Shown: positions 38,058-49,628 of the stretch, one piece after another
How the letters are laid out: every line of letters starts with the position of its first letter
How positions within the stretch are numbered: the first letter of the stretch is position 1
Assembly: GCA_947494145.1 (NCBI GenBank)
Contig: CANLTZ010000003.1
Location: 124,001-188,000, forward strand
DNA length: 64,000 nt
DNA from: an uncultured Jannaschia sp.
GTDB lineage: Bacteria > Pseudomonadota > Alphaproteobacteria > Rhodobacterales > Rhodobacteraceae
Reading direction: 5' to 3'
The notes under the pieces: generated by a model
What the model was told of the DNA's origin: nothing
What the model saw: the letters and a program-made list of their open reading frames with translations, nothing else
Database searches by the model: none
Program-made: the position numbers and the translations under genes

Positions 38058-38065
<8 letters not shown>

Positions 38066-38558
38066 CGGCGGCCACCTTCACGCTGATCATCTTGTCGGGG
38101 TTTTGAGGCGGCTCACCGCGGGTGATCTTGTCGACATGTTCCATCCCCTCGATCACGCGGCCATAGACGGTGTATTGCCGGTTGAGGAAATGGTTGTCCT
38201 TGAAATTGATGAAGAATTGAGAGTTGGCGCTGTCAGGGTTCTGGGAGCGCGCGGCCCCCAGGGTGCCGCGGTCATGGGGCACGCCCGAAAACTCGGCCTT
38301 GAGGTCAGGCTTCGACGAACCACCGGTTCCGGCACGGTTCATGTCGGCCCCGTCGCGACCATGTTCCACATCCCCCGTCTGCGCCATGAAATCGTCGATG
38401 ACGCGGTGGAAGATCACCCCATCATAGGCGCCTTCACGGGCCAATTCCTTCATACGGTCGCAGTGGCCGGGCGCGACATCGGGCAGCAGCTCGATAGTGA
38501 CGACGCCGTCCTTAAGCTCAACGATGATGGTATTTTCCGGGTCTTTGATCTCGGCCAT
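38058..38558 (-). CDS. Cytosolic cyclophilin-type peptidyl-prolyl isomerase
   Basis: 166 aa from ATG 38558 (MAEIKDPENTIIVEL), no signal peptide. YDGVIFHRVIDDFMAQTGDVEHG and NSANSQFFINFKDNHFLNRQYTVYG give the cyclophilin active site. Catalyses Xaa-Pro cis/trans isomerisation. First of two overlapping cyclophilin genes; GGGAGGCCC precedes the start. Confidence 0.93.
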
Positions 38559-38722
38559 CTGGGCCTCCCTATTGGTCTTTGGCACGTGGCTACGGCATTG
38601 GGCGGATGAGGGAAAGCCCACGTGGATCACTGGCCCTTGGGCGTGCCGTTTCGCGCGGAACGGGACCGCCCGTACCCCCGGCAATCGTGTGAACTGCCTT
38701 TCGCGTGTGGCCCGCGCTGCGA

Positions 38723-39742
38723 TCAGTTGCGGGAAACCCGTGGCCCATCAGGCGTCGCGAAATCGAGCGTGACGCGGTGCCCGGCCGGCCCCGTCGTCTG
38801 GCCCATCGTCGCCTGGAGGCGGGCTGCCAAGTCGCGCACAACCCCGGCACGTGTTGGGTCAGTCTGTAGCCTATCGACGGATACGGTAGCTGGCGCCTCG
38901 ATAAGAAGGCGCGCGCCGGCCTCACTACGCCTAAGGCTCAGCAAAATGCGACCCGGTATCCGAGCCAAGAGAGGCGACAGGAGTTCGCAGAGCAAGAGGC
39001 CCATCCACGCGGCGCGACGGCTTGGCATGTAGATCGGATCAGCTACCACATCGACCCGTGGCGAGGTCCCACCTTCAAGCCCGTCGAGCACTGCCGCCAG
39101 ACGATGAAGATAGCTGCCCGCGGCGATCAGGTCCCGCGTGGGTGCGATCTGGGGCGGAGGCGGATGGAACTCATCATAAAGCGGCGCAAGCGCTTCAATC
39201 CGTCCGAAAATACGGGTGTGCAGCCCGCCATCGGGGCCATTCTCGACCGGCGCGCCGATCAGAGCGTCGAGCTTGCCAAGATGGCGTTTCACCCGCGCCT
39301 CCATATCGGCCAACCGTGCATCCAGGGTGGCGAGTGGTGCCGCGCCAGGACGGTGTAATTCTACTTCTGATTGCACGCCCAGAAAGGCCCAAAGGCGTCC
39401 CTGCCGGTCATGAACGGGCGAGACACGCAGACGATTCGTGAAGCTTGTCCCGTTTTCACGAAAGTTCGTCAGCGAACATGTAATCGCGCTGCGCATGCGA
39501 ATTGCATGGGCCAGATCAACAATGGCAGGTTGATCTCGGTCATCATTCTGCATGAACCGGCAATTGCGCCCGATCGATTGGGCAAGACTGTATCCCGTGA
39601 GGTCTTCAAAGGCATGGTTGATGTAGACGACCGGATTGTCAGGACGATTCGGGTCGGTCAACACAACCGAAAGGGGCAATTCGGCCAAGGTATCCGGGCC
39701 GAGTTGCATTGCATCGGTCGTCGCTGCTCGTCCCGTCTGCAT
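38723..39742 (-). CDS. LOV blue-light receptor fused to a degenerate histidine-kinase-like half
   Basis: 339 aa. Residues about 20-130 form a LOV domain: the photoactive Cys61 in GRNCRFMQ (short-LOV consensus NCRFLQ), plus FMN contacts N60, Q65, N93, N103 and Q124 (LGVQSE). Residues about 138-339 resemble HisKA_2/HWE kinases in layout, but the helix EARVKRHLGKLDALI lacks the phospho-acceptor His normally found before R-V-K, and no clear N-box (ELLSPLLARIPG in its place) or GxGxG can be found. It probably senses blue light and signals by another route (binding partner or pseudokinase). 77 bp downstream of the TRAP dctM gene, same strand. Confidence 0.82.
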   Translation of the reverse strand: MQTGRAATTDAMQLGPDTLAELPLSVVLTDPNRPDNPVVYINHAFEDLTGYSLAQSIGRNCRFMQNDDRDQPAIVDLAHAIRMRSAITCSLTNFRENGTSFTNRLRVSPVHDRQGRLWAFLGVQSEVELHRPGAAPLATLDARLADMEARVKRHLGKLDALIGAPVENGPDGGLHTRIFGRIEALAPLYDEFHPPPPQIAPTRDLIAAGSYLHRLAAVLDGLEGGTSPRVDVVADPIYMPSRRAAWMGLLLCELLSPLLARIPGRILLSLRRSEAGARLLIEAPATVSVDRLQTDPTRAGVVRDLAARLQATMGQTTGPAGHRVTLDFATPDGPRVSRN

Positions 39743-39819
39743 GAGGGGCCATCCCCTGTCCGAAAGCTACGGCAGTCAAACCGGCCCGACACCAGAAGGC
39801 AAGAACTGGAACAATCGCG

Positions 39820-42177
39820 TTAGTTGTTCGGCAAAAGGTCGGGCACAATCGTAACGATAGCTGGGAAGTACCACAGAATGGCGAGCCCGATCACCTGAAT
39901 CATCACGAAGGGAATCACGCCGCGATAGATATGGCCTGTCGTGACCTCCTTCGGGGCCACCCCTCGTAAATAGAAAAGCGCGAAGCCAAAGGGTGGCGTC
40001 AGGAACGAGGTCTGAAGGTTCACCGCGATCATGATCGTCACCCATTTCGGATCGAAGGTACCGCCATATATGACAGGCCCCACGATGGGGATGACGATGT
40101 AGATGATTTCCAGGAAGTCGAGAACGAAGCCCAGCACGAAGAGCACGATCATCACGATGATGAAGACCTTCAACTCATTGTCGAAGCTACGCAGGAACTG
40201 CTGGATGTAGTGTTCCCCCCCAAAGGATATGAGGACCAGGTTCAGGAGTTGCGAGCCGATGAGGATGGTGAAAACCATGCTCGTGACCTTGGCCGTCTCG
40301 CGCACCACGGGGCCCAGTACGCCAGTGCGGAACAAGACCCAACAGGCAAAGAGCAGCCCGATGAAGGCCCCGTGATAGGCCGCCTGCGCGATAAACAGCG
40401 CAATGGCATCCGCGGCCGACGTCCCTTCCAGCCCAGTGCGCAAGTCGAAATTAATGCCAAACAGCAACATCACCACCAGTGCCAGCGACGCCATCAGGAT
40501 CGACCCGCCGGAGCGGCCTTCTTCCTGCAACTTACGGTAGGCGGCCAGCATGATGGCGCCACCCGCGCCAAGGGCCGCGGCCGGGGTCGGGTTGGTGATC
40601 CCCCCCAGGATGGAGCCAAGCACCGCCACAATCAGCACCAACGGCGGGAAAACCACGCGCAATAGGTCATTCTGCGCCAATCTCCCGAAGGCGGGTGCCA
40701 CACCGTAGAGCGTGATGGCCATCGGGATCGCCATCAGAACGAAGGTGGTTCCCGACGACGTGGTGGGTGCGATCAGCGCGATGTCGATAGCCAGCGCCAG
40801 AAGGATGCCCCCTGCCCCGATTAGCAGTGGCTTGGGATCGGCCAGCGGGTTGATGCCGCGGGCCACCGAAAGGACCAGACCCAGACCCAGGAACAGGATG
40901 GCAATGCCGGTCCCGATGGGCGCTGCGCCCTGGATGGCAGCGTTGCGCGCCTCGATCAGTTCTTCGGCCGACAACTCGCGCGACAATTGCACACCGCCCG
41001 CATCGTTGATGGCGGCTTGCTGACTGACGGCCAGGTCCCATGCCGCTTGGCCATGCAGTTCGATCATGGCAGCTTGGCAGGCTTCCGAGACGTTGGTGCG
41101 CAGGCTGGCCTGCTCGCCCGCCTGGCTGAAGCTGGACACAAGGGTTGATTGGTTGCCGATCACATCGGCCAGGCCGAAAACGATGCCACCGCCTATGATG
41201 GCAACAGGCACCACCAGGAACCAGATCAACGCATCGTTGCGCGTCGTGGCCGATCCGCGGCCCGCATCCAATACCACGGCAGGTGCCTTGGCGGGGTTAA
41301 CCAGCGCGAAGCCGAACGCATAGGCGCCGTAGAGAAATGCCAGGAACACGCCCGGCAGCAGGGCCGCCTGGAACAGCGTGCCGACCGACACGACCGCCGG
41401 TTCCCCCAGATAGGTGAGCGCATCCGAGCAGCCCACAAGTTGCGCGCGCTGTTCCTGCGCAGTGGAATAGATGTCGCCCGCCAACGTACCAAGAAGCACG
41501 ATCACGATGGAGGGTGGGATGATCTGACCCAGCGTGCCGCTGGCCGCGATGACGCCCGTGGCCAGCTCTGGCGAATAGTTGTTGCGCAACATCGTGGGCA
41601 GCGCCAGCAGGCCCATGGTCACGACCGTCGCCCCCACAATCCCGGTGGATGCGGCCAGAAATGCCCCCACGATCACGATGGACACGGCCAGGCCGCCGGG
41701 CAGCGGACCGAAGACGCGCGCCATGGTGGTCAGCAGGTCTTCCGCGATTTTGGAGCGTTCCAGCGTGATGCCCATCATCACGAACATCAGCACCGCGAGC
41801 AGCGTCTCGATGGAGGCGCCCGCGATCACCCGCTCGTTCATGCGGTTGACGATAAAGGCGATGTTGCGGTCGATGGCCGTTTCCCACCCTTGGGGGAACA
41901 GCGGCTCTTCTATGCGGGGCAATTCCGGGTATCGGAAGACGGAGATGGCGTCGCGTGCCACACCCTCAGCCACCAGAGCGGCATATTCGGCACTGCCCGT
42001 GTCGATAGCCTGGTGGATCAAAATGCCCGCGGAATCGAGGGCGGCAATGATGCCGAAGCTGATCACGCCGGACCCGGCAATGGCAAAGGCGACCGGAAAG
42101 CCCGACATGATCCCGCCAAAGAGGCAAAGGAACACGATCACCAGGCCAATTTCGACCCCATCAAGTCCGAACAGCAT
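39820..42177 (-). CDS. TRAP transporter large permease (DctM), extended type
   Basis: 785 aa, much longer than the ~430-470 aa classical DctM (the other one in this window is 472 aa). TRAP-type signatures: IAASGTLGQIIPPSIVIVLLGTLAGD in the first half, FLTPPFGFALFYLRGVAP in the last. Extra material: a soluble segment after TM2 (about 50-110, with RYPELPRIEEPLFPQGWE) and a central insert of about 150-200 residues with extra helices and a Glu/Ala-rich soluble stretch. Sodium-driven uptake of an organic acid with DctQ and the TakP-like binding proteins upstream. The C-terminus ends IVTIVPDLLPNN. Confidence 0.9.
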   Translation of the reverse strand: MLFGLDGVEIGLVIVFLCLFGGIMSGFPVAFAIAGSGVISFGIIAALDSAGILIHQAIDTGSAEYAALVAEGVARDAISVFRYPELPRIEEPLFPQGWETAIDRNIAFIVNRMNERVIAGASIETLLAVLMFVMMGITLERSKIAEDLLTTMARVFGPLPGGLAVSIVIVGAFLAASTGIVGATVVTMGLLALPTMLRNNYSPELATGVIAASGTLGQIIPPSIVIVLLGTLAGDIYSTAQEQRAQLVGCSDALTYLGEPAVVSVGTLFQAALLPGVFLAFLYGAYAFGFALVNPAKAPAVVLDAGRGSATTRNDALIWFLVVPVAIIGGGIVFGLADVIGNQSTLVSSFSQAGEQASLRTNVSEACQAAMIELHGQAAWDLAVSQQAAINDAGGVQLSRELSAEELIEARNAAIQGAAPIGTGIAILFLGLGLVLSVARGINPLADPKPLLIGAGGILLALAIDIALIAPTTSSGTTFVLMAIPMAITLYGVAPAFGRLAQNDLLRVVFPPLVLIVAVLGSILGGITNPTPAAALGAGGAIMLAAYRKLQEEGRSGGSILMASLALVVMLLFGINFDLRTGLEGTSAADAIALFIAQAAYHGAFIGLLFACWVLFRTGVLGPVVRETAKVTSMVFTILIGSQLLNLVLISFGGEHYIQQFLRSFDNELKVFIIVMIVLFVLGFVLDFLEIIYIVIPIVGPVIYGGTFDPKWVTIMIAVNLQTSFLTPPFGFALFYLRGVAPKEVTTGHIYRGVIPFVMIQVIGLAILWYFPAIVTIVPDLLPNN

Positions 42178-42242
42178 CTATTAGGTCCCCCATGCCGCGC
42201 GCGGCAGCATCTCTTTTGTCGTTCGCCCGGTTGTCCCGGGTT

Positions 42243-43160
42243 TCAATGTATCTCAGCCACGCGTTCGGCGGCTTCATCGCCCAGGATGTCGCGGTCGAGG
42301 TAGCGGTCTTTGCTGATGTCGCCTTCGCGGTATTCCAGCCAAGATCGCCAGAAGAAGGTCAGCGCCTGGGCAAAGGCCGTGGCCGCGAAAAGCAGGATCA
42401 GCACCTTGAACAGGAAATACGCATCGAAGCCGTTGGGGCTGAAGCCGATGGTTTCGACATTCCAGCGCAGCGCGCGGGCCTTCAGCAGCAGCCGATCAAG
42501 ATCGTCACTGGCCGAGGTGGCGGGTGTGATCATCGACCGCCAGAAGAAGAACCACGAAAAGAGCCAGATCAGGATGAGCGATGGCACCATGAAAAGCATC
42601 GCGCCGCACATGTCGATCACACGCTTGGTGCGGTGGGACACGGCGGAATAGACAAGGTCCACGCGCACGTGGCCGCCCTGGATAAAGGTCCAAGCGACGC
42701 AAAGGCAGACGATCATGGCGTTGTAGAGCTTGAGTTCCTCCGAATACCACGACAGGTCGCGCGTGAAGGTGGCACCAAAGGGCCCCACGCTGATTTCCGA
42801 AACGCGGAAAATGCGTTGCAGGAACACGATCATGATCTGCTGTAGCACCATGATCAGCCCCGCCCAGGCCGCGATGCGGCCAATCCAGTTCAGGACGAAT
42901 TCGAAGCCGCGCACCACACCCCAAAGGAATTCGCGCCGGAAATAGCCGATGGCAGTGATGACCAGAAAAATCAGGAGGATGGCGAAGAAAAGCTCGACCG
43001 AAGCGCCGTAATAAATGAGGCGCATGAGGGTCTGTTTGTCCTCCGGCGTCTCGAAGGCGAAAGCCCAGCCGAGCCAGGAACCCGGATTGGCGATGGCGTA
43101 TCCGATATTCCAGACGGACATGGCGAGGTTCGTGAAGAACCAGGTGATGGCGTCGAGCAT
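42243..43160 (-). CDS. TRAP transporter small permease (DctQ), extended type
   Basis: 305 aa from ATG 43160 (MLDAITWFFTNLAMSVWNIG); upstream in-frame extension is not family-like. Longer than typical DctQ (about 170 aa); the core DctQ helices lie about 90-230 (GLIMVLQQIMIVFLQRIF, CVAWTFIQGGHVRVDLVYSAV), with an extra N-terminal membrane region and a C-terminal helix plus charged tail. The long form matches the extended DctM 65 bp downstream. Confidence 0.87.
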   Translation of the reverse strand: MLDAITWFFTNLAMSVWNIGYAIANPGSWLGWAFAFETPEDKQTLMRLIYYGASVELFFAILLIFLVITAIGYFRREFLWGVVRGFEFVLNWIGRIAAWAGLIMVLQQIMIVFLQRIFRVSEISVGPFGATFTRDLSWYSEELKLYNAMIVCLCVAWTFIQGGHVRVDLVYSAVSHRTKRVIDMCGAMLFMVPSLILIWLFSWFFFWRSMITPATSASDDLDRLLLKARALRWNVETIGFSPNGFDAYFLFKVLILLFAATAFAQALTFFWRSWLEYREGDISKDRYLDRDILGDEAAERVAEIH

Positions 43161-43342
43161 GGCGTCCCCCCGGGCGGGCTCGGTGGCCGGGGTTACACCT
43201 GCGCCTTCGCGCGCGGCCCCCGTGTGTCTTCTTAGTCTCGGGCCCGCCCCCCAGAAGGGACGGGCCGGATTTATCGGTTCCACGCGGGTATGGCACCGCG
43301 CGCTGCGCCCCCGACCGCGGTGTGGTGACGGGGGCTGGCAGG

Positions 43343-44425
43343 TCAGCCCATGACGCGGTCGCGTTGGGCGCGATAGACGCCTTCAGAACGTGTGATCCAG
43401 CCCGACGAGGCGCGCATGCTTTCCATGGCACTATCGTGGATCTTCTTGAAGAGTTCATCGCCCATGTTTTCGTCCAGCACCTCACGGGCAGCGACGCCCA
43501 TGGCATCCCAGACCGCATCGGGGAATTCGCGGATGGTGACACCGCCCGATTGCAAGCGCTGCAGCGCCGAGCCGTTGTTGTTGAGGTATTGCGACAGATT
43601 CCACTGGTGGCCCTCGCCCGCGGCGATCTCGACGATCTTCTGCTGGGCAGGGGTCAGGCTTTCGAACACGTCGCGGTTCACGGCCAGCGACAGGCCTGCG
43701 CCCGGCTCGTGGAAACCGGCGGTGTAGTAGATCTTCGTGATCTCCTGGAAGCCCGCCTTTTCGTCGGCCCAGGGTCCAATCCACTCGGTCCCGTCGATCG
43801 CACCGGAGGCCAGCGCCTGGTAAACTTCGGAACCAGGAAGGTTCTGGACGGAGGCGCCCATCTTGCCCAAAGCCTGGCCCCCCAGGCCCGGCATACGGAA
43901 TTTGAGGCCCTGGAAATCCTCGGGGCCAGAGATTTCCTGGCGGAACCAGCCGCCAGCCTGGGCGCCGGTGTTACCCGCCAGGAACGACTTGAGGCCGAAA
44001 ATCTGACCCAGCTCATCATGCAGGGCCGCACCATCGCCATGGTAGTACCAATTGGCCAATTCCTGCGCCGTCATGCCAAAGGGCACGGCGGTGAAGAATG
44101 CATAGCCCGGATGCTGGCCCACGAAGTAGTAATCGGCGCCGTGATACATGTCAGCCTGACCGGAAGTCACGGCGTCGAAGACTTCGAACGCGCCCACAAG
44201 CTCGCCTGCGGCCTTCAAATCGACGGTCAGCGCGCCGTCGGACATGGCGGTGATGCTATCGGCGGCCCGCTGAGCTGAATCGTGCACACCCGCGAGGCCG
44301 CGGCCCCAGGTGGTAACCAGCGTCAGCGTGCGGTTGCCTTGCGCATAAGCGGGCGCGGCAAGCGCGGTCGCGCCAGCAGCAGCGCCACCAATGGTGGATT
44401 TCTTAAGGAATGAACGGCGGTCCAT
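43343..44425 (-). CDS. TRAP substrate-binding protein 1 (DctP, TakP-like)
   Basis: 360 aa with a Tat signal peptide (MDRRSFLKKSTIGGAAAG, cleavage after AYA). Resembles the 2-oxoacid-binding TakP of Rhodobacter: ADYYFVGQHPGYAFFTAVPFGM, NTGAQAGGWFRQEI, GAIDGTEWIGPWADEKAGF. The motif GGWFR plus TEWIGP marks the sodium/oxoacid site in TakP. Binds its ligand in the periplasm and docks on DctQM. Very similar to a second copy at 45533-46609; the large majority of aligned residues are identical by eye. Confidence 0.92.
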   Translation of the reverse strand: MDRRSFLKKSTIGGAAAGATALAAPAYAQGNRTLTLVTTWGRGLAGVHDSAQRAADSITAMSDGALTVDLKAAGELVGAFEVFDAVTSGQADMYHGADYYFVGQHPGYAFFTAVPFGMTAQELANWYYHGDGAALHDELGQIFGLKSFLAGNTGAQAGGWFRQEISGPEDFQGLKFRMPGLGGQALGKMGASVQNLPGSEVYQALASGAIDGTEWIGPWADEKAGFQEITKIYYTAGFHEPGAGLSLAVNRDVFESLTPAQQKIVEIAAGEGHQWNLSQYLNNNGSALQRLQSGGVTIREFPDAVWDAMGVAAREVLDENMGDELFKKIHDSAMESMRASSGWITRSEGVYRAQRDRVMG

Positions 44426-44553
44426 TAACCCCTCCCCTGATGTTATCGCGTCGCCTGCCCTCCCGGCAGGTCAACGGCCCCTCGTTCGGGGCGTGGGGCG
44501 ACACTAGGCAATGGCGGGCCGGAGTCAAATACCCGAAAACACGTAGACTTGCG

Positions 44554-45448
44554 TCAGACGATGTCCGCCACGTGGTAGTCCAAGGCGCGGAGACCATCCG
44601 TCATCCAAAGGAACGGACCAAGACCGACCGGGCCCCGCCAAGCTTCGGTGCCGTCAGGCAAACCTGCCAGGCGGACAGCGCCCATTTCCTCTAGCCCAGG
44701 CATTCCAGTGCGGGCTACTCGGATATGTGTAGACACGTTGGGGCGAGCGGCCTTGCGATCTCTATACCCTGGCCCGACTACGACACATTTTCCACGGACG
44801 GCGATCGCATGGCCCCGCGCACCAGCGTCGGCCAGCTCGTCACTTCGCCTGTCTCGTCGATGCGCGTCAGATCGAAATCCGTGCAGGCGTAGAACCAGCA
44901 TTCGCTGCCCGTCTCGTTAGGCGCATAGAAGTCGTTTATAACAGCGCCCGTAACTTGGTCGTTAAACCACACCAGCGACCCGTCGGCATCGAAGCCAGTC
45001 AAACCGTGGGACGACACGGGATATCCAAGACGAGGGTCTGGCATATCACCGTAGACGCCTTGGTCAAAATAGCTCATCCAGAAGAGTCCCTGCCGGTCGA
45101 CTTGCACATCCAAGATTCTGTCGCCCACATGAAAGCTCGCGCGGTGCTCACCGCCCTTTCCAAAGACATGGGCATTGCGCGGGATTTCACCATAGACCGC
45201 TCACAGCAGGCATCCACAATCATGAAAGAACCGTCGTCTGCGCGGGCCATGATCGGGCATTCCACACCGTTGGGAAGACTGGCTGCCACCTCTCCCTCCG
45301 GGCCCCGCACAACGATTTTTCTGGACGCATGACGCGACAGGCCAGCAACGAATGCGCGCCCATGCCTGTCGAAGGCGATTGTGGTAATGTCGCCCTCCAG
45401 GCGAGGCAGGTTTATCTCAACCCGCGGGTACCAGTTCTTCTGAGACAA
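44554..45448 (-). pseudogene. Frameshifted beta-propeller-like gene between two DctP copies
   Basis: Three consecutive minus-strand frames read as one ~300-residue protein: LEGDITTIAFDRHGRAFVAGLSR and DGSFMIVDACCERS (from about 45448); then YGEIPRNAHVFGKGG, DRILDVQVDRQGLFWMSYFDQG, HGLTGFDADGSLVWFND; then HAIAVRGKCVVVGPGYRD and VRLAGLPDGTEAWRGP to the stop at 44554. Repeated strands of the form F-D-G-L/F-W suggest a gluconolactonase/beta-propeller fold. Two net single-base losses are needed, near 45195 and in the C-run at 44813-44816. Start TTG 45448 is uncertain. Shifts do not compensate, so no full-length product is made unless these are sequencing errors. Confidence 0.7.
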
Positions 45449-45532: not shown

Positions 45533-46609
45533 TCAGACCCCGATCACACGGTCCCGCTGGGCGCGGTATAGCCCCTCGGACCGCGACAACCAAGCTGATG
45601 ACGCCACCATGCTTTCGGTGGCCGAGGCGTGGATCTTGGCGAACAGCTCATCGGACAGGTTTTCTTCCGTTACCTCTTGTGCGGCAGCGCCCATGGCATC
45701 CCAGACCGCATCGGGGAATTGCCGCACCTGCACACCTTCGCCTTGCAGGCGTGCCAGGGCCTTGCCGTTTTCGTTCAGGAACTGCGCCAGATTCCAGGCA
45801 TGGGCATCGCCCGCGGCCACTTCGATGATGGTCTGATGCGCCAGCGACAGGCTTTCGAACACGTCGCGATTAACGGCCAGCGTGTTGCCGGTGCCGGGTT
45901 CGTGGAAGCCAGCGGCATAGTAAATCTTAGTGATCTCCTGGAAGCCCATCTTCTCATCGGCCCAGGGCCCGATCCACTCCGTCCCCTCGATCGCGCCGGA
46001 GGCCAGTGCCTGATAGACCTCGGAGCCCGGCAAGTTCTGCACCGACGCGCCCATCTTGCCCAAGGCCTGGCCGCCCAGACCCGGCATACGGAACTTCAAA
46101 CCCTGAAAATCCTCAGGACTATTGATTTCGCGGGCATACCAGCCGCCCGCCTGCACGCCGGAATTGCCGGCGAGGAAGGATTTCAACCCGAAGATCTGCC
46201 CCAGCTCATCATGCAACTCGGCCCCGCCGGCATGGTAGTACCAGTTCGCCTGTTCCTGCGCGGTCATTCCAAACGGCGTCGACGAGAAATAAGCATAGCC
46301 CGGATGCTGGCCCACAAAGTAGTAATCCGCCCCGTGATACATGTCAGCCTGCCCCGCGGACACGGCATCGAAGACTTCGAAGGCGCCAACCAACTCTCCC
46401 GCGGCTTTCAGTTCCACCGTCAGCGTCCCGTCCGACATGGTGCTGATCATGTCCGCACAGCGCTGCGCCACGTCATGGACACCAGCAAGGCCGCGGCCCC
46501 AGGTGGTGACCAGTGTCAGCGTGCGGTTGCCCTCGGCATAGGCCGGTGCGGCCAAGGCGGTGGCTCCGGCTCCGGCAGTGGAAGCCTTTAGAAATGTACG
46601 ACGATCCAT
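45533..46609 (-). CDS. TRAP substrate-binding protein 2 (DctP, TakP-like)
   Basis: 358 aa from ATG 46609, Tat signal MDRRTFLKASTAGAGATALAAPAYA. Same architecture and motifs as copy 1 (ADYYFVGQHPGYAYFSSTPFGM, NSGVQAGGWYAREI, GAIEGTEWIGPWADEKMGF); differences cluster near the ligand-region segment (GGWY versus GGWF) and the C-terminal third, so ligand preference may differ. First gene of the minus-strand TRAP cluster; divergent from the Cache-domain kinase, with the promoter region in the 182-bp gap. Confidence 0.92.
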   Translation of the reverse strand: MDRRTFLKASTAGAGATALAAPAYAEGNRTLTLVTTWGRGLAGVHDVAQRCADMISTMSDGTLTVELKAAGELVGAFEVFDAVSAGQADMYHGADYYFVGQHPGYAYFSSTPFGMTAQEQANWYYHAGGAELHDELGQIFGLKSFLAGNSGVQAGGWYAREINSPEDFQGLKFRMPGLGGQALGKMGASVQNLPGSEVYQALASGAIEGTEWIGPWADEKMGFQEITKIYYAAGFHEPGTGNTLAVNRDVFESLSLAHQTIIEVAAGDAHAWNLAQFLNENGKALARLQGEGVQVRQFPDAVWDAMGAAAQEVTEENLSDELFAKIHASATESMVASSAWLSRSEGLYRAQRDRVIGV

Positions 46610-46791
46610 CGCGTCCTCTCCTGTCCTTCTTGATTGCGGCGCCGGCGCATCCCCCGCGCGCAGCCCGATGCACCGGACCTTGGGGCGCGGCCCCGGGGCG
46701 GCAACGCATCGGATAGATCTAGCAGGCATCACCACGGGTCACTGCCCAAGCCGCTGGCATCTTTCGCGCGTTTGCCGTTCAATTGGGCACC

Positions 46792-48192
46792 ATGCGCTTG
46801 CCCCGCCCCTCATATGGCCAGTCCTTGTTCCTTCTGGCGACCCTGCCGCTGATCCTGGCGGTCACGGCCATTGCCCTGCTTGTGACGCAGCAATCTGAGC
46901 GCGCCGCCGAGCGCGAGATCGCGGCGCTGGAATCCGCCATGATCGACGCCAAGCAGCGGGAGTTGCGCAATTACGTGCAGCTGGCGCGCACCGCCTTCAT
47001 CACCATCTACGGCAATGCCGCCCCCGACGATGCGGCGGCCAAGCTTCGGGTCACGCAGATCCTGTCTGCCATGGTCTACGGCCAAGACGGGTTCTTCTTC
47101 GTTTTCGACTATGAGGGCAACGCCCTGGTGGCGCCCCGCCATACCTGGCTTATCGGGCGCAATTGGGCCGGGCTGGAAGACCGCGAAGGCGTGGACGTCA
47201 CCGACACGCTGGTGGACCTAGCCCGCCAAGGCTCGGGCTATCACAGCTATGAATGGCGCAAACCGTCCACGGGCGAAGAAACCACGATCCTAACCTATGT
47301 GATCGGGCTTCAAGACTGGCGATGGGCCATCGGAACAGGTGTCTTTCTGGACGACATCCTCGCCCAAGCCGCCACCGCACGCGCCGAGGTGCGCGAACGG
47401 GTGCGCGCCCAATTCCTGACCATCGGCGCCATCGCGGGGGCGGCGCTTCTGCTGGTCTTTGCCTCGGGCTTTCTGATCACCGTCCGCGAACGGCGCCTGG
47501 CCGATGCCAAGCTCAAGCAACTCACCCAGCGGGTTCTGGACACCCAGGAAGAGGAACGCGGCCGCGTGGCGCGTGAACTCCATGATGGGATCAGCCAGCT
47601 TCTGGTGGGTATCCGCTTCAAACTGGAACTGGCGCGGCGCCTGACCGCCAAGGGCGACCCGAAGGCCGAAGAGGCCGTGGAAAGCGCCGTGGACGGCCTG
47701 CAATCGGCCATCGGTGAGGTGCGCCGCATCAGCCATGATCTGCGGCCCGGCGTGCTGGACGATCTGGGCCTGGGCCCCGCGCTGAAGGCGCTGTGCGAAG
47801 CGTTCGAGGCACGCACGGGCACGCCCGTCATCTTCCGCACGGTGGTCTTCCGCAACCGCCTGGATATCGACGCGAAGACCGCGCTCTACCGCATAGCTCA
47901 GGAAGCGCTCACCAATGTGGAACGCCATGCGGGCGCCAGCCGCGTCTCGGTCCGCGTCTTCGGCCATCGCAGCGGCGCAACCCTGCGGATCGAAGATGAC
48001 GGCACCGGCGTCGCGCAACCAGGCGGCGGCATGGGCCTGCGCAACATGGCCGAACGGATTGAACAGCTCGATGGCAAGCTCACCATCGGCCCCGGGACTA
48101 GCGGAATTGGCACACTCGTCGAAGCGACAGTGCCGCTGACGCATCTGCTGACCCCCGACAGCGCGGACGCGACAAAACATGCTGCGGAATAA
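46792..48192 (+). CDS. Cache-domain sensor histidine kinase (NarL/DesK type)
   Basis: 466 aa from ATG 46792. TM1 about 12-33, periplasmic single Cache domain (about 35-195: QDGFFFVFDYEGNALVAPRH, YVIGLQDWRWAIGTGVFLDDI), TM2 about 205-228, then HisKA_3 with EERGRVARELHDGISQLLVG (phospho-acceptor His in ELHDG), and ATPase with AQEALTNVERHAGAS and MGLRNMAERI. Cache domains bind small acids, so it plausibly senses the substrate of the divergent TRAP system. Its LuxR-type partner is likely the regulator at 48987. Confidence 0.9.
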   Translation: MRLPRPSYGQSLFLLATLPLILAVTAIALLVTQQSERAAEREIAALESAMIDAKQRELRNYVQLARTAFITIYGNAAPDDAAAKLRVTQILSAMVYGQDGFFFVFDYEGNALVAPRHTWLIGRNWAGLEDREGVDVTDTLVDLARQGSGYHSYEWRKPSTGEETTILTYVIGLQDWRWAIGTGVFLDDILAQAATARAEVRERVRAQFLTIGAIAGAALLLVFASGFLITVRERRLADAKLKQLTQRVLDTQEEERGRVARELHDGISQLLVGIRFKLELARRLTAKGDPKAEEAVESAVDGLQSAIGEVRRISHDLRPGVLDDLGLGPALKALCEAFEARTGTPVIFRTVVFRNRLDIDAKTALYRIAQEALTNVERHAGASRVSVRVFGHRSGATLRIEDDGTGVAQPGGGMGLRNMAERIEQLDGKLTIGPGTSGIGTLVEATVPLTHLLTPDSADATKHAAE

Positions 48193-48220: not shown

Positions 48221-48751
48221 TCACGTTGCCCATTCGGCAATCACGTCCGCCGCTTCCGCCGCCGTCAGGTCAGTCACGTCCAGACGCAGCACCTGGTCCG
48301 TCCCACGCGCGATCAGCACCCGCTCATAGCGATCGGGCCGCAGCAAGGTTCCGTCGAGGGGTTTGCGCTTGCCCATCCGCTCCCGTCCCGCCAGACGCCG
48401 CTCATTTTCCGCCCGCGCGCAGTCAAGCGCCACGATGCGGTAGGCCCCGCCCCGCTGCGAAACCAAATCCAGCACGGCATCCCAGGCCTCTTGGGCGCGC
48501 GGCGAATCTTCGAACAGCGAATCCGTCAGAACCACCGGCATGTCCGGCGGCAGGTCAAGAATGCGCGCAAAAGCCACGGCTCGCGTCTCCGCCACCGTCT
48601 GCCGGCACAGTGCCGAGCCCACATCAGTCAGGGCGAAGGCGATGTTGTAGATGCTGTGATTGTCCAAAAGGCGTCCGCCCAATCGCTCGGCCAGATGGCG
48701 CCCGATGGTCAGCTTGCCCACGCCCGGCAATCCGTTGAGATGTAAGATCAT
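48221..48751 (-). CDS. P-loop kinase-like AAA protein
   Basis: 176 aa from ATG 48751. Walker A GLPGVGKLT (7-15) at the very N-terminus, DNHSIYN and VVLTDSLFE in place of lid/Walker B features, RRLAGRERMGKRKPLDGTLL as a lid-like Arg-rich segment. Resembles shikimate/chloramphenicol-phosphotransferase-like small-molecule kinases; substrate unknown. Inserted between the kinase and its presumed response regulator on the opposite strand. Confidence 0.78.
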   Translation of the reverse strand: MILHLNGLPGVGKLTIGRHLAERLGGRLLDNHSIYNIAFALTDVGSALCRQTVAETRAVAFARILDLPPDMPVVLTDSLFEDSPRAQEAWDAVLDLVSQRGGAYRIVALDCARAENERRLAGRERMGKRKPLDGTLLRPDRYERVLIARGTDQVLRLDVTDLTAAEAADVIAEWAT

Positions 48752-48872
48752 AGCTCCACCCTGCGCGCCTGCCCGCCCCCGGGACAATGGCGCTGCCGCC
48801 CAAGGCCCGCCGTCTGCCGCAATCCGCCGGGCGCAGCCCAAGCCGACGCCGCCGCCCACGCAAACCCCGCGC

Positions 48873-48903
48873 CCCTTCATCCTGGCAAAAATACTCAATT
48901 CCG
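48873..48903 (-). repeat. Dispersed repeat core, copy D
   Basis: Minus strand GGAATTGAGTATTTTTGCCAGGAT then GAAGG, matching the core of copies A-C. Here the adjoining strong hairpin is not evident (GGGCC on one side only), so it is a partial copy. It lies in the 235-bp gap between the P-loop kinase and the response regulator. Confidence 0.65.
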
Positions 48904-48986
48904 GCCCGTCGAACATACCACCCCGCCCGGGCCATGTCGCCCAACGCCTGGACAGGCCTGCCGCCCTCGGCCTATTGCGCCAGATC

Positions 48987-49628
48987 ATGTCCGCGCCAAT
49001 CCGCATTCTCATCGTCGATGATCACCCCATGGTGGCCGAAGGGATCCGCGCGCTTCTCGAAACCTTCGACGATCTGGAGGTTGTAGGCACCCTGCAAGAT
49101 GGGCAGGAGGCCATCGACCGCGCCGCCGACTTGGCGCCCGATGTGGTGCTGCTTGATCTCAACATGCCGCGGCTCAACGGGCTTTCCGCTACGGAAATCC
49201 TGCGGGAACGCCACCCGGATATCGCCGTGCTCATCCTGTCCATGCATGACGCGCCCGAATATGTCGCCACCGCCCTGCGCCACGGCGCCGCCGGTTACTG
49301 CCTCAAGGACCAACCGACCGAAGAGATCCGCCGCGCCATCGACGTGGTACATGGCGGCGGGCGCTACCTGTGCCCAGGCGCCGAAAGCGCGTTGGAGCCG
49401 TCGGGCGATGGAAGCGAGCCGCTCACCTCGCGCGAACAAACCATCCTGCTGCACCTCGCCCAGGGCCGCTCCAACAAGGAAGTTGCCCATGCGCTCGATA
49501 TCTCGGTGCGCACGGTGGAAACGCACCGCAAGAACCTCAAGCGCAAGCTGGGCATTTCCTCCACAGCCGGGCTGACGCGCTACGCTTTGGAACATGGCGT
49601 GCTGCAGGGGACCGGGTTGCTTCCCTAG
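48987..49628 (+). CDS. LuxR/NarL-family response regulator
   Basis: 213 aa. Receiver with acidic pair DD11-12, phospho-acceptor Asp57 in LLDLNMPRLNG, and switch residues LSMHD and KDQPT; C-terminal HTH about 145-205 (LTSREQTILLHLAQGRSNKEVAHAL, SVRTVETHRKNLKRKLG). NarL-class output matches the HisKA_3 kinase at 46792, its probable partner, despite the intervening opposite-strand gene. ATG 48987 gives the family start MSAPIRILIVDDHP; the long frame upstream is shadow. Confidence 0.93.
   Translation: MSAPIRILIVDDHPMVAEGIRALLETFDDLEVVGTLQDGQEAIDRAADLAPDVVLLDLNMPRLNGLSATEILRERHPDIAVLILSMHDAPEYVATALRHGAAGYCLKDQPTEEIRRAIDVVHGGGRYLCPGAESALEPSGDGSEPLTSREQTILLHLAQGRSNKEVAHALDISVRTVETHRKNLKRKLGISSTAGLTRYALEHGVLQGTGLLP

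Follow-up and report, generated by a model that had tools for sequence, protein, structure and literature searches.

The gene studied here occupies positions 38723..39742 on the minus strand of the window, that is, of the whole 64,000-nucleotide stretch of uncultured Jannaschia sp. DNA that was analysed, and encodes a LOV-domain protein of 339 aa with an ATG start and no internal stop (hereafter the window protein). On the same strand it is preceded by three TRAP transporter genes, dctP for the solute receptor (43343..44425), dctQ for the small permease (42243..43283, identified by domain search) and dctM for the large permease of 785 aa (39820..42177), and it is followed by a cyclophilin gene (38058..38561, minus strand, its start at 38561 chosen inside the open-reading frame 38058..38684), which is a conserved downstream neighbour. 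A Cache-HisKA_3 histidine kinase gene is divergent from the TRAP operon (46783..48192, plus strand), and a LuxR-type response regulator gene is present at 48987..49628, also on the plus strand, its start inferred from a Pfam match inside the open-reading frame 48660..49628. The best solved relative of DctP is 2hzk, with the ketoacid-binding 7ug8 in third place; 2hzk was deposited as SmoM and we take it to be TakP, a receptor for 2-oxoacids in Rhodobacter sphaeroides; by homology these solved relatives suggest 2-oxoacids as the substrate. The dctP gene is duplicated in the window (43343-44425 and 45533-46735, 80% identical), with two small open-reading frames lacking a Pfam match between the copies, and the five orthologous loci described below have one copy each as judged from the open-reading frames picked.

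The preliminary description of this DNA had placed the LOV gene 77 bp after dctM on the same strand; this holds, and the linkage extends to other genomes. All 20 genomes of the genus carry dctM (80-87% identical to that of the window in the other 19), and in all six that carry the LOV gene it follows dctM on the same strand, directly adjacent in four (gaps of ~54-87 bp, with starts chosen by the analyst) and with one extra open-reading frame between in two. The cyclophilin gene comes next in 19 of the 20 genomes and was not found in the stretch examined of the remaining one (G394). The conserved synteny indicates that the gene order dctP-dctQ-dctM-[LOV]-cyclophilin is ancient and that the LOV gene was most likely inherited as part of it, and it is on this synteny that a link to TRAP uptake would rest. 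A scan of 38500..45000 returned one promoter-like site (1.8 in shuffled sequence) and 12 terminator-like sites (5.2 in shuffled sequence), none of either kind in the 77-bp dctM-LOV gap, which provides no evidence for or against co-transcription. The TRAP-linked LOV gene is present in 6 of 14 genomes with photosynthesis genes and 0 of 6 without, a difference that is not significant (Fisher 0.11). A DUF533 gene is often found in the dctM-cyclophilin slot, with or without the LOV gene (L065, L067, L082, L083 and others).

The LOV (PAS_9) domain spans residues 23-128 (39359..39676, minus strand; PAS_9 match to residues 27-124, E 2.4e-13). Residues 58-65 form the LOV motif GRNCRFMQ, which includes the adduct-forming Cys61 (codon 39560..39562, minus strand). 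The FMN-contact residues Asn93, Asn103 and Gln124 align with those of DsLOV and of EL346, the monomeric LOV histidine kinase of Erythrobacter litoralis (4r3a, 4r39), whose domain order is the same and whose length is similar. The PAS fold, the GRNCRF[LM]Q motif, the adduct Cys and the Asn/Asn/Gln set expected of a LOV photoreceptor are therefore all present, the completeness claimed for this domain beforehand is upheld, and the structural model of the window protein also matched LOV proteins when compared with VIA-align 2. Pfam searches at E<=1 found PAS families only, PAS_9 scoring best. NCBIfam gave partial, sub-cut-off matches to LOV protein models, one of which describes a blue-light-activated histidine kinase and matches residues 24-186 (104 bits against a cut-off of 450), and the top PDB match by sequence was EL346 (4r3a, E 1.2e-38, residues 19-262).

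The second half of the protein has lost every catalytic motif that we looked for. No match to HisKA_2, HWE_HK or HATPase_c was found in the window protein at E<=1, and the same Pfam library detects both HisKA_2 and HATPase_c in the two of the five same-slot orthologs that were scanned (L064:8664-9797 and L066:8128-9246). The H-box (residues 146-155; 39278..39307, minus strand) reads DMEARVKRHL against EMQHRVKNHL in the orthologs, with the acceptor His replaced by Ala149. The N-box (residues 252-264; 38951..38989, minus strand) is reduced to CELLSPLL, a five-residue deletion and ARIPG, the N-box Asn being replaced by Pro, and the D-box region (residues 281-295; 38858..38902, minus strand) reads IEAPATVSVDRLQTD and contains no DxGxG. 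Over the stretch that begins with the N-box and ends with the last helix, the ortholog L036 has 8 residues more than the window protein, 5 of these at the N-box, the gap placement within the lid varying by alignment, and an ATP lid motif is not recognisable. The D-box positions hold Pro/Ala/Thr in one alignment and Val/Asp290/Arg in another; in the latter Asp290 corresponds to the second Asp of DDGxG, which still leaves no DxGxG motif. In total, none of the six catalytic positions scored is canonical in the window protein, whereas all are canonical in each of the five TRAP-linked orthologs (L036-L040), which carry HRxKNHL, SNxxxH and DDGxG. The acceptor His itself is present in these five and in 31 of 31 other rows outside the LdaP-like group described below. 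The window protein thus has none of the acceptor His, N-box Asn, DxGxG and lid of an active HisKA_2/HWE kinase, and the clear ATP-binding domain with catalytic residues that would have spoken against a dead kinase half is absent.

Structure prediction addressed whether the fold outlived these motifs. AlphaFold2 models of the whole protein (four-row alignment; pLDDT 62.6, pTM 0.46) and of the kinase half alone (three-row alignment; pLDDT 66.0, pTM 0.65) are of modest confidence, with low confidence in the first DHp helix. The top Foldseek match of the whole model was full-length EL346 (4r3a, E 1.3e-20), at a TM of 0.41-0.44 and an rmsd of 20, so that the arrangement of the domains is not predicted, and in VIA-align 2 EL346 tied with the Brucella LOV-HK and short LOV proteins. 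For the kinase half, VIA-align 2 ranked 4r3a first (Z 15.8, rmsd 3.3 over 154 residues, spanning model residues 38-200, or protein residues 170-332), ahead of the Brucella LOV-HK (Z 13.2) and other kinases (~12). The predicted model thus supports a DHp-CA half that still folds like EL346, and the earlier view of a HisKA_2/HWE-like output region stripped of its acceptor His and ATP boxes agrees with the motif alignment, the Pfam searches and this best match.

To place the protein by descent, 29 rows besides that of the window were extracted from matches in 177 of 394 genomes, together with 28 of 33 further genus matches listed at E<=1e-20, L002 and L003 from the window's own genome, L004-L006 and LdaP. 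Motif counts cover extracted rows with loci; L003, L004 and L053 (partial) were left out of the trees and the residue count, and the careful tree further omits L005, L006, L047, L050, L051, L052, L054, L061 and L063. Within the genus, 5 of the other 19 genomes encode an ortholog of the window protein, at 40-44% identity (L036-L040), and the genome and genus searches found no full-length match above 44%. The best-scoring matches outside the genus are 33-38% identical (34-36% for the leading ones of the wider genome search), and matches confined to the LOV part reached 46% and 51% in separate searches. A scan of genome contigs added three relatives, one of them a LOV part only, a scan of viral contigs found no relative of the window protein, and 282 plasmid records all fell below 60% identity. 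An orthologous degenerate copy was sought among the 60 other extracted proteins; there was none, and none of the 60 lacks both the acceptor His and the ATP site. In the 52-row tree the window protein joins the five TRAP-linked kinases with support of 100/99, and a group of the five orthologs that excludes it is neither demonstrated nor rejected (AU p 0.234), so that the loss may have occurred within that group or beside it. The kinase half therefore has both the fold (4r3a, as above) and the descent of a HisKA_2/HWE kinase, and the gene shares slot and clade with the TRAP-linked LOV-HK orthologs of the genus. As intact LOV histidine kinases hold the same slot in five genomes, catalysis was lost from this kinase in one lineage. 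With the catalytic parts lost and the fold seemingly kept, signalling is probably by holding another protein, and our preferred reading, which we regard as probable, is that the gene encodes a blue-light receptor whose ancestor was a TRAP-linked LOV histidine kinase of the EL346 type and which is now a light-switched, protein-binding pseudokinase.

Because a single genome has yielded the degenerate form, the main rival is gene decay, in which a kinase that lost its use is drifting and its frame has survived through chance or because the decay began only recently. Several measurements lean this way. The window protein has an end branch of 2.24 in the 52-row tree against a median of 0.38, and GC3 is lowered, at 0.64 for the gene (0.58 for the LOV part) compared with 0.75-0.82 in 12 neighbour genes, whose 105-codon windows range from 0.68 to 0.90; this fits weak or relaxed selection. 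The LOV part, too, has changed to an unusual degree, having lost 9 of the 50 residues invariant among the orthologs, where single orthologs keep 86-98% when left out in turn. In favour of the pseudokinase, invariant residues were kept unevenly, at 41 of 50 positions in the LOV domain, 22 of 42 in DHp and linker and 17 of 42 in CA. Against decay, the FMN positions and Cys61 are intact, the length changes preserve the reading frame, and the kinase half has no stops and is hydrophobic at 53 of 61 core positions. When the kinase half of an ortholog was evolved neutrally to the observed divergence, none of 1000 runs in any of four settings combined freedom from stops with 53 or more hydrophobic residues at the 61 core positions, under a simple model of substitutions only, with two mutation spectra and one ortholog as the start. 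Both thresholds were reached in 0-2 of 1000 runs at 50% identity and in 7-21 of 1000 at 60%, so that most of the constraint may date from an earlier time. The absence of stops says little about constraint when taken by itself, as 0-26 of 300 runs, and up to 165 of 1000 in a second simulation, left the kinase half stop-free by chance. The all-polar positions of the kinase half are much less well preserved than the core: of 67, 39 are still polar and 21 are identical to L036. The simulations support a kinase half held by selection for its fold. We do not read the gene as dead; its product would be folded and constrained, with selection on it unusual or weak, although a single sequence cannot settle this, and we consider decay unlikely while leaving it appreciable weight.

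The closest functional parallel is LdaP (Dshi_1135) of Dinoroseobacter shibae, an EL346-like LOV protein of 338 aa with Cys61 and a replaced acceptor His, which showed no autophosphorylation and works by binding PpsR, in the authors' model in darkness but not under blue light (PMC10890935). Two published primers match genome G035 exactly and so identified LdaP there; it is 338 aa long, with Arg at the acceptor position, and this also puts the window's genome in one family with D. shibae. It belongs to a clade of 24 rows, LdaP included (support 96/96 in the careful tree and 97 in the quick tree), made up of L002, L010, L011, L014, L015, L018-L021, L025, L026, L034, L044-L046, L048, L049, L056-L060, L062 and L070:5286-6302. 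The acceptor His is lost in 24 of 24 (N, S, A, R, E, D, T or G instead), and the N, D and G of the ATP site are kept in 24 of 24. LdaP and the window protein are alike in size, Cys61 and the missing acceptor His, and differ in that LdaP and its 23 relatives keep the N-box, D-box and G residues, of which the window protein has none, and in that the ldaP gene lies by a CoA-transferase gene and the window gene by the TRAP operon.

These likenesses, together with a PpsR above the family cut-off and pufM in the window genome, are what a second LdaP, that is, a light-dependent PpsR antirepressor of photosynthesis genes, would lead one to expect. However, placement of the window protein inside the LdaP clade was rejected (AU p 3.5e-7, with the caution that the group was chosen once a first tree had been seen and that the window row is long), the ATP site that all 24 LdaP-like rows keep is gone, and the genome already has its own LdaP ortholog, L002, which shares 66-73% identity with its counterparts in 12 further genomes of the genus and is directly followed by a CoA-transferase gene, as ldaP is in D. 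shibae. We therefore hold a second LdaP to be improbable. As the window protein falls outside this clade, the acceptor His was lost independently, at least twice among the tree rows, and as L002 is already present, the window protein would be an additional switch; by its motifs and placement it is a LOV pseudokinase, independent of LdaP and more thoroughly disarmed. Of the 14 genomes that carry pufM, 13 have an LdaP ortholog (at least 66% identical to L002, L002 included), and of the 6 that lack pufM none does (Fisher 1.8e-4); throughout a genus, this agrees with the control of photosynthesis published for LdaP. The LdaP-like sequences further suggest that nucleotide binding may be a second input to this photosynthesis antirepressor; a term search of PMC10890935 returned no passage on this pocket.

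Still less probable is that the LOV domain alone matters, as a flavin or light sink or in the manner of short LOV proteins, with the kinase half as ballast: the LOV part did retain invariants better than the kinase half (41 of 50 against 39 of 84, Fisher 5e-5), and short LOV proteins exist (DsLOV and RsLOV are among the structure matches), but the kinase half retains its hydrophobic core and is not cut short by a stop. That the protein has kept enzymatic activity through some unconventional mechanism, for example as a phosphotransferase through His154, which remains from the HRVKNHL motif, or as a kinase with displaced motifs in which Asp290 may be the second D-box Asp, deserves almost no credence, given that His154 is not at the acceptor position and that N-box, DxGxG and lid motifs are lost.

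For the light-switched pseudokinase that we favour, EL346 offers a working model. In EL346, light loosens the packing of the LOV domain on the DHp/CA half. In the window protein, blue light would form a Cys61-FMN adduct, which by analogy may loosen the LOV packing in the same way and so expose or hide a surface of the DHp/CA half that a partner could bind. The protein would then act free of phosphate by holding a partner, perhaps the response regulator of the ancestral kinase or, as in LdaP, a transcription factor, and from the place of its gene it would most likely tune the TRAP uptake genes, for 2-oxoacids by homology. EL346 itself works as a kinase and has His142 as its acceptor (PMC10890935), whereas the window protein has Ala149 and no ATP-site motif. 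A subgroup of EL346-like LOV-HKs without the phosphoacceptor His has been reported (PMC10359499), which shares this loss with the window protein; the passages seen of that paper mention no function for it and no missing ATP site. Conversion of a histidine kinase into a binding module also has a precedent in DivL of Caulobacter, a PAS-linked histidine kinase with Tyr550 in place of the acceptor His and no autokinase activity, which binds an ATP analog weakly and acts by binding DivK~P; it has its role in cell fate and is not described as a LOV photoreceptor in the parts seen of PMC4211667, the source of these statements.

Light-sensing pseudokinases are barely known. Among the open-licence PubMed Central matches listed, LdaP is the only one with a demonstrated role, and, as judged by title and start of abstract, none describes a LOV pseudokinase besides LdaP and the subgroup remark in PMC10359499 and none concerns a TRAP-linked LOV protein. 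It is possible, although we consider it rather doubtful, that the window protein represents a second, independent conversion of a LOV kinase to a phosphate- and nucleotide-free light switch, wired to TRAP 2-oxoacid uptake. If true, light signalling through a histidine kinase scaffold would be possible without ATP and without transfer of a phosphoryl group, and the five apparently active same-slot orthologs and the window protein would form a matched before-and-after pair for the evolution of a kinase into an adaptor. As the ATP pocket is lost too and intact orthologs exist at the same position, the case offers a test of which parts of a LOV kinase pass on the light signal, it bears on how a two-component sensor becomes a binding switch, and it could tie light to carboxylic-acid uptake in bacteria with photosynthesis genes. 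Elsewhere in the same genome, locus L071 (G000:C12:105000-117000) encodes a BLUF protein (L071:10628-11041), and ~5 kb from its gene lies that of a PAS_9 protein with the LOV-like motif GRSLSFLQG, which lacks the adduct Cys.
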